Source of the DNA: Prochlorococcus sp. AG-418-F08
Lineage (GTDB): Bacteria > Cyanobacteriota > Cyanobacteriia > PCC-6307 > Cyanobiaceae
NCBI GenBank assembly: GCA_003214295.1
Contig: QCLV01000002.1
Location: forward strand, 62,001-126,000
Length of the DNA: 64,000 bases
Direction of reading: 5' to 3'
Position numbers and translations under genes: made by a program. Of the stretch, positions 21,890-23,926 are shown one piece after another. Position 1 is the stretch's first letter. The number at the start of each line of letters is the position of its first letter. The notes under the pieces were generated by a model. That model was not told where the DNA came from. It ran no database searches and was given only the letters and a program-made list of their open reading frames with translations.

Positions 21890-21914
21890 AAAGTCAGCTT
21901 TTTAGGGTGACTTT
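21890..21914 (-). terminator. terminator-like hairpin after tRNA remnant B
   Basis: Read on the minus strand, AAAGTCA pairs with TGACTTT across an 11-base loop and is followed by a T-run. It lies about 25 bases past the decayed tRNA-Asn 3' end at 21939-21958 in the same orientation. That is the arrangement seen at the intact tRNA-Asn. Confidence 0.5.
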
Positions 21915-21938
21915 GGATAACTTTTTAGAATTTATAAA

Positions 21939-21958
21939 CCCCCCGGACGGGATTCTAA
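21939..21958 (-). pseudogene. tRNA-Asn 3'-end remnant B
   Basis: The plus-strand sequence CCCCCCGGACGGGATTCTAA matches the 3' end of the intact tRNA-Asn (CTCCCCGGGCGGGATTCGAA, 23855-23874) at 17 of 20 positions. It covers the acceptor 3' strand and part of the T-arm and is in the same orientation. The 5' part of a tRNA is absent. It is best read as an old attachment-site copy left by integration at the tRNA gene. Confidence 0.65.
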
Positions 21959-22227
21959 TAAGATAAAAGAAGTAAGCCATAGATAGATTTGAACAGTCAT
22001 TTCTTTATACATTCCGGAAGAATAAGAAAATAACAAGAAAAAATTTAGTTTTTGTTAATTAGTGGAGTAATTTTTACACCTTAAATATCATATTCAAACT
22101 ATGGCATTTTAATTAACATCAATACATTTTTTGGTAAAATCATAAGGTTATCAAGAAGTATGCACAGGTAGAAGTCTCTCTCCTTAAGTAACACAAATTA
22201 GATATTTTTTTATTATTAACTAAAGTC

Positions 22228-22347
22228 ATGAAACGTATTCATAAAATCGACTATGAAGAACTTTATTTTTTAACTGTTCCTAAACTTTGTTCTTTGTTTG
22301 GTTTTTCTCATTCCACATTAAAGAGAAGAGAGATAAGATCAATATGA
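22228..22347 (+). CDS. helix-turn-helix micro-protein, excisionase/AlpA-like fragment
   Basis: This 39-residue frame starts at ATG 22228 and stops at TGA 22345-22347. Its second half, LTVPKLCSLFGFSHSTLKRR, has the pattern of the DNA-recognition helices in small winged-helix proteins such as excisionases and AlpA-type regulators, with a Phe-Gly-Phe-Ser turn followed by Ser-Thr and basic residues. It stops where a wing would normally follow, so it may be a truncated remnant. The stop lies 22 bases before the glycosyltransferase start, consistent with one transcript. It is too short for firm family assignment. Confidence 0.45.
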   Translation: MKRIHKIDYEELYFLTVPKLCSLFGFSHSTLKRREIRSI

Positions 22348-22369
22348 TCAGATAAATAATTTTTGATAT

Positions 22370-23320
22370 ATGAGCAATACTTATGATGTCGTAACTTGCG
22401 TGAGTAAAGAACACTTAGAAATTGGGATTCGAGCCATTAGGTCGTTAATTAAATTATCTGAAGCAAACAAAATTTTTGTAATTACTTCCAATAAGAATAA
22501 AAATTTTTTCCAAAAAAATTTCCCAAGGGAGAAATTACTAATCATTCTTGATGAGGACGAAATAATTCCAAATATGAAACTTGTTGATGTTGCCTCTACT
22601 CTTCAAGAATATGGTGGTAACCCAGAAAGAGCAGGTTGGTATTATCAACAATTCCTAAAAATGAATATTTCAAGGCATCCCCTAATATCCAAATATTATT
22701 TAATTTGGGATTCAGATACAATTATGCTAAAAAAAATTAACTTCTTCAATAAATCAAATAAAATAATTCTTAATACGAGTAAAGAGTTTCATAAACCGTA
22801 TTTTCAGACAATAAGAAATTTTGGATTACTTAAAAAAAATAATTTTTCATTTATTAGCGAACATATGCTTATTAATTCAAAGATAATGAATAATTTAATA
22901 TCTCTCATAGAAAAAACTAACTCTAAAAATCATTCCTGGATAAAAACTTTAATTAGTCACATTAATCAAGATAGTTTAAACGGCAGTGGTTTTAGTGAGT
23001 TTGAAACTTATGGTACCTATCTATCTAAGTATCACATTGATTCTTTTGTTACAAATAGATTAAAATCCTGCAGACAAACTTATTCTTTATTCGGAAAACA
23101 CAATCGACTTAATACATTCTTAACTTTAAAATTCTACGGTTATTATTGGGCATCATTCGAGAATTGGGATTTAAAAAATCAAAAATATCTCCCTTTGAGA
23201 GCATTCCGTATTTTTAACAATTTAATAGCAAATTTTTTAATTATTTTTGTTAAAGTCTCCAAATTACAAAAAAAGAATGTTGAATTCTTAAGTTATCTTT
23301 CAATGCCCATAATTAGATAA
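22370..23320 (+). CDS. DUF6492-type glycosyltransferase-like protein
   Basis: This 316-residue protein resembles the DUF6492 group of GT-A-like proteins. It opens with TYDVVTCVSKEHLEIGIRAIRSL, a typical sugar-transferase first strand. It carries a DxD-type metal motif in YYLIWDSDTIMLKKI at about residues 111-125, preceded by GWYYQQFLKM. A later GFSEFETYGTYL contains conserved acidic residues. There is no signal peptide. Such genes usually modify the cell surface and are common cargo in picocyanobacterial genomic islands, where surface changes affect phage adsorption. It is the only sizeable gene between the two tRNA-Asn remnants. The sugar and acceptor are unknown. Confidence 0.8.
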   Translation: MSNTYDVVTCVSKEHLEIGIRAIRSLIKLSEANKIFVITSNKNKNFFQKNFPREKLLIILDEDEIIPNMKLVDVASTLQEYGGNPERAGWYYQQFLKMNISRHPLISKYYLIWDSDTIMLKKINFFNKSNKIILNTSKEFHKPYFQTIRNFGLLKKNNFSFISEHMLINSKIMNNLISLIEKTNSKNHSWIKTLISHINQDSLNGSGFSEFETYGTYLSKYHIDSFVTNRLKSCRQTYSLFGKHNRLNTFLTLKFYGYYWASFENWDLKNQKYLPLRAFRIFNNLIANFLIIFVKVSKLQKKNVEFLSYLSMPIIR

Positions 23321-23322
23321 TA

Positions 23323-23457
23323 ATGTTAAAATCAGGATATAAAATTTTTAGATATTTCTTTTTAAATAAAGGAGACGAAAATTTTATAATGGATGGTGGA
23401 ATTGCAGGGGAAGAAGTTATAAAATTCGGTCAAAATTTGAAGTCATTTTCAGAGTGA
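23323..23457 (+). CDS. small hypothetical protein, 44 residues
   Basis: The frame begins at ATG 23323, two bases after the glycosyltransferase stop, and ends at TGA 23455-23457. The translation starts MLKSGYKIFRYFFLNKGDEN and then has a Gly-rich FIMDGGIAGEEV stretch. I do not recognise it. It may be the 5' remnant of a longer cargo gene, since the following 400 bases have no continuation in any frame that I can support. Confidence 0.35.
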   Translation: MLKSGYKIFRYFFLNKGDENFIMDGGIAGEEVIKFGQNLKSFSE

Positions 23458-23615
23458 ATAGTAGAAATAAACACAGTTCTACAGGGTTAAAAATAATAAG
23501 AAAACATATCTGAAAAACAAGAAAACAACAAGAAGACATTTTCAGAAAAAGTGGCAATTATTGGTCTATTCTAGTCTTCTCCGATACCCTGAAACCCCTG
23601 TGATGAACATAAAAA

Positions 23616-23635
23616 AGGAGACCCTTAGGTCTCCT
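23616..23635 (-). terminator. terminator-like hairpin after tRNA remnant A
   Basis: AGGAGACC and GGTCTCCT form a perfect eight-base stem with a four-base loop. On the minus strand the hairpin is followed by TTTTTT. It lies about 25 bases past tRNA remnant A in the direction of tRNA transcription, matching the layout at the intact gene. Confidence 0.75.
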
Positions 23636-23657
23636 GAACTGATTTGAACCCGTTATG

Positions 23658-23677
23658 GAACTCCCCGGGTGGAATCG
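23658..23677 (-). pseudogene. tRNA-Asn 3'-end remnant A
   Basis: GAACTCCCCGGG (23658-23669) is identical to the 3' end and first flanking bases of the intact tRNA-Asn (23852-23863). It is followed by TGGAATCG in place of CGGGATTCG. The homology therefore covers the discriminator, the acceptor 3' strand and a decayed T-arm, in the same orientation, with a terminator-like hairpin behind it. No 5' tRNA half is present. It is most simply explained as a displaced tRNA 3' end from an integration event. Confidence 0.65.
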
Positions 23678-23808
23678 GGGTTGATATTTCCTGATAGTGC
23701 CTGACTGAAGTTGATATAAAAAAATCATGAATTTTAGGAATATTCCCACCATCTTCCCACCATTTTCATAAATAAATTGAACTTAAATTAAAAAATAAAT
23801 AATAAAAA

Positions 23809-23826
23809 AGACCCTTTCTGGGGTCT
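23809..23826 (-). terminator. terminator of tRNA-Asn
   Basis: On the minus strand AGACCC pairs with GGGTCT around a six-base loop and is followed by a run of T. It lies about 28 bases after the 3' end of the tRNA-Asn, a classic intrinsic terminator position. Confidence 0.8.
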
Positions 23827-23854
23827 TAAACACTCTTATGAGACTTAAATTGAA

Positions 23855-23926
23855 CTCCCCGGGCGGGATTCGAACCTGCGACCAATCGATTAACAGTCGA
23901 TCGCTCTACCGCTGAGCTACCGAGGA
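23855..23926 (-). tRNA. trnN: tRNA-Asn (anticodon GTT)
   Basis: On the minus strand the 72-base cloverleaf has acceptor TCCTCGG pairing with CCGGGGA and discriminator G, a D-arm GCTCAGCGGTAGAGC, an anticodon loop CTGTTAA flanked by ATCGA/TCGAT, and a T-loop TTCGAAT. The anticodon is GTT, hence Asn. The 3' CCA is not encoded. The T-stem (GCAGG with CCCGC) contains one A-C mismatch at the middle pair. Two decayed copies of the 3' end occur upstream on the plus axis (23658 and 21939), marking this gene as an integration target. Confidence 0.95.

Follow-up and report, generated by a model that had tools for sequence, protein, structure and literature searches.

The tRNA-Asn gene of Prochlorococcus sp. 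AG-418-F08, at about 23.9 kb of the 64,000-nucleotide stretch analysed here (the window), probably carries two integrative elements, stacked by accretion and non-autonomous, that resemble cis-mobilisable elements (CIMEs) and were moved in trans; we put the probability of this reading at roughly 75%. The two elements, E1 and E2, are bounded by copies of the tRNA 3' end, which would serve as core attachment (att) sites, and carry element-specific repeats of about 11 bp, here called arm repeats. An integrase encoded elsewhere would recombine the att site of an element with the tRNA gene, and the element would provide a new 3' end and terminator, which leaves the tRNA whole and shifts earlier arrivals away from it. 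E1 would have delivered a gene of the DUF6492 family while retaining a truncated excisionase-like gene, and E2 would be the remainder of an element after deletion between its left and right arm repeats. The principle, integration at a tRNA gene with accretion, is ordinary. What is unusual is that integrase-less units predominate, that the arms are element-specific and matched, that an excisionase-like gene is kept and that some minimal elements are fused at their arms.

The genome of the window (G000 among the 266 genomes of the genus compared here) is an incomplete assembly, 81% complete in 40 contigs. An earlier note on this DNA, made from the sequence alone, had described an intact tRNA-Asn with its own terminator, and both were recovered, the gene by ARAGORN and Rfam and the terminator as a hairpin around 23810-23825 (fold -10.5 kcal). 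Run at a permissive E-value, Rfam returned 8 other matches below the gathering score, and the tRNA alone reached its own. Comparison of the last 22 nt of the tRNA with both strands of the 64 kb returned the gene and two further copies in the same orientation, at 21937 (3 mismatches) and 23659 (6 mismatches); the remaining four matches at ≤8 mismatches had 7 or 8 each. Sixty dinucleotide shuffles of the window gave a mean of 0.0 matches at ≤5, 0.08 at ≤6 and 0.53 at ≤7 mismatches. The three tRNA ends bound two units, 21938-23659 (E1) and 23660-23853 (E2). What the copies have in common is mainly the last ~12 nt (ACTCCCCGGGCG), with the host terminator shared by the outermost copy as well; beyond these parts the window's copies diverge, and the diverging half is probably owned by the element. 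The two similarly oriented copies of the earlier note thus stand, and exceed the chance level, but "decayed" fits them only in part, the divergent half probably being the element's own. The hairpins it had placed at 21890-21914 and 23616-23635 are both present; the latter folds at -12.7 kcal, and the outermost is weak (-4.1 kcal, failing the cut-off of -5 that we set).

Across the genus, the right flank of the locus was matched in 259 of the 266 genomes and the left flank in 230, some matches being weak or confined to the tRNA. The gap between the flanks was read by eye in 119 genomes, including that of the window, with both flanks on one contig; this census drew on the matches listed for about 150 genomes per flank, excluded flanks on different contigs and may contain omissions. 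The gap was below 900 bp in 3 genomes, 900-1100 bp in 55, 1100-1300 bp in 14, 1300-3000 bp in 19, 3-6 kb in 17 and above 6 kb in 11, with a maximum of 11.9 kb. The site was therefore empty-sized in 55/119 and enlarged in 61/119, by up to ~11 kb. In many short-gap genomes (e.g. G244), the match to window 21200-21958 meets the tRNA match with an overlap of ~22 bp. We fetched 80 regions, 59 picked as apparently filled or broken and 21 as apparently empty. In all 21 empty loci (L112-L132), host sequence abuts the intact tRNA directly at the place where filled loci carry the outer copy, and the counterpart of window 21890-21949 continues straight into the intact tRNA. Judged by this comparison, window 21890-21949 is the displaced host end. 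In most outer copies, the host terminator region is preserved together with ACTCCCCGGGCG or a close variant of it, and divergence sets in afterwards, so the crossover probably lies within the tRNA 3' end, with the further half coming from the element.

Insertion and outward displacement are thus directly visible, as the earlier note had proposed for site-specific insertion at tRNA-Asn, and the site is polymorphic between strains, with empty and variously sized filled forms. Neither of the outcomes that the note had named as speaking against insertion, an arrangement shared by all relatives or fragments better matched by other sequence, was obtained. Chance or convergence without mobility, as an origin of the tRNA-like fragments, would agree with their shortness (12-22 nt), but shuffling gave an expectation of 0.0-0.08, and in empty sites the intact tRNA occupies the very position of the outer copy of filled strains; this comparison refutes the explanation, and we give it practically no weight.

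For comparison of the inserts, 72 units were cut from 51 loci; units <120 bp were dropped, and ends came from loose matching, so that some may be false. Twelve filled or broken loci without a measurable pair of tRNA ends stand outside these units (L055, L056, L071, L073, L081, L082, L092, L099, L100, L101, L102 and L109). Three loci, L173, L174 and L176, were added through a search for the arm pattern, a choice that favours arm matching in these three. Many tRNA-proximal insert ends carry short tandem repeats, and the repeated word differs among units (e.g. CCCACCA, ACAAGAAAACA and GACGAATA types). The left and right arms matched at ≥10/11 positions in 36/53 units of at least 500 bp, against 557/2756 mismatched pairs and 88/662 interior control pairs; among 20000 permutations none reached 36, the best giving 23. 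In 29/53 units, one arm word recurred twice on the left and three or four times on the right. The E2-type arm pair CCCACCANNNNCCCACCA gave 34 matches, some overlapping, in 19/266 genomes, and its reversed-pattern control gave 0. All 34 were placed at the tRNA-Asn hotspot or beside a tRNA-Asn 3'-end copy, the placement for G047, G076 and G206:C6 coming from coordinates adjoining the left-flank match alone. A terminator-like hairpin lay within 75 nt of the tRNA end in 65/72 unit ends, against 15/300 random positions. Judging from their layout, these element-specific tandem repeats of ~11 bp are most likely arm-type binding sites of a tyrosine integrase. A viral-contig scan for the E2 arm pair returned 11 stretches, which we read as chance, the att core being ≥3 mismatches off in 10 of them. 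In the eleventh, near 5936 of a viral contig rich in G+C (L191), an att core 1 mismatch off lies within ~170 bp of an E2-type arm pair.

Most units at this site lack an integrase. Among the 53 units ≥500 bp, 4 carry an integrase of the family described below, 25, E1 included, have an excisionase-like match only (in L062 this is 17 residues outside the helix-turn-helix), and 24 have neither; the classification searched one integrase family, and unrelated integrases would escape it. Among 73 insert proteins of ≥200 aa, Pfam Phage_integrase was found in only two, and in a control of 14 genomes this same family was detected in all 14. These counts suggest that tRNA-Asn is a busy docking site at which helper-dependent elements outnumber self-sufficient ones. 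They also bear on plain decay, in which the units once carried an integrase, inserted themselves and later lost it, with no present movement in trans. Decay would agree with the truncated excisionase-like open reading frame (ORF) of E1, with the minimal arm-fused elements, with the 24/53 units that carry neither gene and with integrase remnants: a profile search found fragments in G023, G107, G255 and G258, and G215:C3:83088-83198, near the left end of an insert, may be integrase gene debris (a 27-aa frame with three stops, E 1.1e-5). Against it, 19 of the 24 integrase-less units with an AlpA-like ORF motif keep an open frame of 57-68 aa from ATG. In 18 of these 19, the frame begins immediately after the left arms, at a distance of 103-117 bp from the copy of the tRNA end, and in one at 92 bp. 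The ratio of nonsynonymous to synonymous divergence of the AlpA-like ORFs (NG86 dN/dS) had a median of 0.31 over 45 non-independent pairs; some of the history behind this value may be older than the loss of the integrase.

The strongest sign of mobility is the high identity of one integrase-less unit across more diverged hosts, which also speaks against plain decay. This ~960-bp unit holds one 105-aa ORF (no Pfam family past the cut-off, no PHROG match) and GACGAAT arms, and is 95.6-97.6% identical among L079, L080, L088 and L098. In the same four strains, identity is 87.9-89.9% for the ABC gene next to the tRNA, 89.2-91.7% for the 800 bp that follow and 94.0-96.7% for the 150 bp nearest the tRNA. 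Because the neighbours differ, the outer flanks of 300 bp can hardly be aligned, reaching 64-74% over 78-280 columns with many gaps. A further copy, in L090, is less close (93.8-94.6%). Two other comparisons were dropped as transfer evidence: L057 with L089 (unit 97.7%), as the flanking gene is 96.3% identical as well, and L088 with L090, with a flanking gene at 95.2%. With movement of units by a trans-acting integrase as our preferred reading, we regard plain decay as an unlikely but serious competitor.

Homologous recombination through the core genes on either side could in principle have spread the units with no integrase involved. The flanks are conserved in most genomes, and the 150 bp outward from the tRNA are, at 94.0-96.7% in the pairs tested, little below the ~960-bp unit itself. 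But identity changes abruptly at the outer att site: between L088 and L098 it is 62-78% in four 100-column blocks outside and 94-100% in most blocks inside, while the ABC gene on the other side stands at 89.1%. Together with the barely alignable outer flanks and differing neighbours of the four strains, this makes spread by homologous recombination improbable.

Some relatives do carry an integrase at this site. Tyrosine recombinases that fall into one cluster are encoded in three hotspot inserts, and L173 (G182) is a fourth, so that the recombinase which the earlier note had suggested seeking between the repeats is indeed present in some relatives. L173 is a 10.26-kb element at tRNA-Asn with CCCACCA-type arms at both ends, i.e. 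an integrase-bearing relative with arms of the E2 type; it has an AlpA-like ORF (Pfam 1.5e-4, barely past the cut-off) and an integrase with no Pfam match that hits PHROG_1 at 6e-25. In an alignment of the four integrases, R275, R375 and Y410 are invariant, and the HxxR histidine is kept in three and is Q in L061; we take these residues to have catalytic roles. A Resolvase-family serine recombinase accompanies the integrase in all four fully read hotspot elements (L058, L061, L068 and L173). The integrase profile marked 28 places in 25/266 genomes, six of them at tRNA-Asn as defined by an att core with host flank or tRNA (G182, G043, G126, G200, G123 and G045). At the place in G077, CCCGACC arms accompany an att core with 1 mismatch, but the stretch fetched shows no tRNA. 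Arms differed here too, being CCCACC in G182, CCCGACC in G043 and G077, CCCAACA in G045 and G123, CCAGAAC in G200 and GACTAGTA in G126. Among 15 further integrase loci, 4 (L233 at tRNA-Asn; L246, L247 and L248 at tRNA-Ser(GCT)) had tandem repeats that matched between the two ends, and several had them at one end only; no fitting tandem repeats were seen in L241, L244, L250 and L251. The elements with related integrases by tRNA-Ser(GCT) belong to G132, G061 and G166, and their tandem repeats have a period of 12. A viral-contig scan for the integrase gave two weak, partial matches and no such element. The strands and helix predicted for residues 31-97 of the G182 integrase are compatible with an arm-binding domain and were not counted as evidence.

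Within the window, no integrase ORF or tblastn match was found in E1 or E2, in line with the earlier note. The helix-turn-helix micro-ORF reported there can now be identified as a truncated excisionase-like (AlpA-like) ORF: its 39 aa match a 51-aa ORF of L053 (G221) at 71% over 35 aa (E 1e-12) and another AlpA-like ORF at E 8e-5 (set of 7), with no significant Pfam match of its own. The 51-aa ORF in turn matches AlpA-like ORFs of other inserts (blastp E 5e-8, set of 7) and HTH_17 at 7.5e-4, under the Pfam cut-off, and a relative in L174 hits Phage_AlpA at 1.2e-10. The left end of E1 is 81% identical over 312 bp to that of the G221 insert, a stretch that includes the small ORF. The exact right arm pair of E1 occurs in 3/266 genomes (G000, G215 and G243), always at the tRNA-Asn hotspot. 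The right ends of E1, G215 and G243 align closely, while in G215 and G243 blastp shows no similarity between the genes that lie behind these ends and the DUF6492 gene. As to that cargo gene, the DUF6492 assignment holds, but "glycosyltransferase" was a label of the earlier note only. The idea that the gene is common to other hotspot units was rejected, since blastp gave nothing under E 1.7. Of the DNA matches listed for E1, those that cover the gene lie in G143 and G023 (82-83%), in another neighbourhood with tRNA-Ser (L179, L180), a possible source of the cargo.

The single cargo segment of the earlier note thus corresponds to E1, but the 194-bp E2 and the arm repeats had been overlooked (Table 1). 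The best match of both E2 ends is one 5.4-kb element, L174 (left 87%, median 61; right 77%, median 57), and the two ends are joined at the arms, as in a solo remnant. E2 is apparently two ends of one element fused at the arm repeats; deletion between these repeats is the simplest reading of the minimal elements, although such elements may also move as such, small from the start. With two fetched later, the 18 units <300 bp make 20 mini units, and in 6 of them, E2 included, both ends have the same best partner. The mini unit L238 resembles two CCCACC-type units, with matches of 99% and 89%, and L078, L095, L096 (1751-1949) and L106 have no good match to any unit. Minimal elements of ~170-260 bp with a tandem arm pair occur in L062, L065, L069, L094, L095, L096, L103-L107, L110, L235 and L238; L078, L108, L111 and another stretch of L096 are of similar size without a clear arm pair.

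Table 1 Features of the tRNA-Asn locus, in window positions.
Feature	Position	Strand	Basis
Host flank gene, DUF7326	21242..21601	+	common to empty-site strains; Pfam
Displaced original host terminator of tRNA-Asn	21890..21914	-	counterpart adjoins intact tRNA in empty-site strains
Element E1	21938..23659		bounded by outer and second tRNA 3'-end copies
Outer tRNA 3'-end copy (att), E1 left boundary	21938..21949	-	22-mer match 21937, 3 mismatches; empty-site comparison
E1 left arm-type repeats, two imperfect ~11-bp copies	22022..22043	+	84 and 95 bp inside att; tandem match 9/10
Truncated AlpA/excisionase-like ORF, 39 aa	22228..22347	+	similarity to L053 ORF
Cargo gene, DUF6492 family, 316 aa	22370..23320	+	Pfam PF20102 E 2.1e-7, passes cut-off
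Small ORF, 44 aa	23323..23457	+	no Pfam match
E1 right arm-type repeats, three copies ATAAGAAAACA, ACAAGAAAACA, ACAAGAAGACA	23496..23538	+	
Terminator brought by E1	23616..23635	-	fold -12.7 kcal, then U-run
Second tRNA 3'-end copy (att), E1 right and E2 left boundary	23660..23671	-	22-mer match 23659
Element E2, 194-bp minimal (solo-like) element	23660..23853	.	two ends around one CCCACCA arm pair
E2 arm-type repeats, two copies ATTCCCACCAT, CTTCCCACCAT	23742..23763	+	
Terminator brought by E2, now downstream of intact tRNA	23804..23825	-	hairpin -10.5 kcal
Intact tRNA-Asn (GTT), integration target	23854..23927	-	ARAGORN; Rfam 23855-23926

Several observations weigh against movement in trans as we propose it. 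The profile gave 0 matches for an integrase of this family in G000, an assembly 81% complete, and the Pfam-family scan of that genome gave a single Phage_integrase match. Among the 266 genomes there was no integrase-bearing element with the exact arm pair of E1, and the GACGAAT arms of the best-transferred unit were absent from the integrase loci examined. Neither a circular form nor a joined element site (attP) was seen, viral-contig scans included. As for the repeats, 17/53 units have no left-right arm match of ≥10/11, 24/53 do not reach two copies on the left and three on the right, having fewer of them or no word in common, and the left arms of E1 are weaker than those of most units, with one copy only by word count. 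Only 6 of the 20 mini units have one partner at both ends. The AlphaFold2 model of the G182 integrase is of low confidence (predicted local distance difference test, pLDDT, 51); a search by sequence found no solved structure. Finally, E1 may be a dead element, its excisionase-like ORF being truncated. Between the alternatives left by the earlier note, decay or mobilisation in trans, we favour the latter for the element class, while E1 itself shows decay.

On the trans reading, the arm repeats could be an exchangeable address code: an integrase acting in trans would recognise the arms and move the unit, the unit often keeping its own excisionase-like switch, and diversified arms would let stacked neighbours move independently. 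We offer this tentatively, with the odds somewhat against it; binding of the integrase by the repeats is, like action in trans, deduced from sequence. If true, single genes such as restriction systems, the DUF6492 gene or the 105-aa ORF would have a route in and out of genomic islands without a recombinase of their own in an abundant phototroph, the arm sequence would predict the helper, and integrase-based surveys would miss most units at such a site, where 4/53 units ≥500 bp carry this family. In the 73 insert proteins (a set that excludes the window, L173, L174 and L176), ResIII came first (5/73) among the 25 of 92 Pfam families listed, followed by several restriction and methylase families; no conjugation families were among those 25, and no search was aimed at them. 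PADLOC found type I, IIG and other restriction models on the inserts, with tallies inflated by overlapping models. In the integrase-less 5.4-kb L174:1980-7391 (G180), the only ORFs ≥60 aa are one of the AlpA-like kind and one for a type ISP restriction-modification enzyme of 1612 aa.

An attP of the lambda type has two arm sites on one side of the core and three on the other. The units here likewise have tandem direct-repeat arms on both sides of the core site, but elements sharing one core differ in the sequence of their arms. Among the titles and abstract openings listed from an open-licence library, none described arm-matched integrase-less elements for this genus.

The tycheposons of Prochlorococcus use seven tRNAs and a tyrosine recombinase and span 4-200 kb (PMC10872708); as in these elements (also PMC10187409, PMC10654061 and PMC12416821), we found a tRNA target, a tyrosine recombinase in the integrase-bearing relatives and variable cargo. 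By description, our units differ in being mostly integrase-less and often below 4-200 kb; E1 and E2 sit at a tRNA gene and lack the tyrosine recombinase present in 4/53 hotspot units. Another element of picocyanobacteria, whose tyrosine integrase is a distinct one and lies at tRNA-Phe or tRNA-Cys, in many cases close to a small serine recombinase (PMC10187409), shares with the integrase-bearing units the integrase type, the nearby serine recombinase, a tRNA target and variable cargo; again by description only, the target differs, being tRNA-Asn here and tRNA-Ser for some relatives. In Methylophilaceae, additive islands of 330 bp to 42 kb are preceded by recurring 20-nt tRNA-Lys ends (PMC10872708), like the repeated tRNA 3' ends before inserts of variable size and content here, while that source, as far as accessible, does not mention arm repeats, a helper integrase or an excisionase for the islands.

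Closest are CIMEs, elements that have lost their genes for integration and transfer but keep both attL and attR, and the accretion by which a later element enters an att site bearing the gene end (PMC5704250). As in CIMEs and in accretion arrays of integrative and conjugative elements (ICEs) or integrative and mobilisable elements (IMEs), an integration gene is lacking, attL and attR are retained, and elements stack in tandem at one target gene: E1 and E2 have no integration gene, E1 retaining the truncated excisionase-like ORF, and the att sites persist in the intact tRNA and in the copies of its 3' end at 21938 and 23660. Unlike in CIMEs as described there, an excisionase-like gene is still present in many of our units, along with arm repeats that match, and one unit type seems to have moved alone, not in cis with a neighbour.

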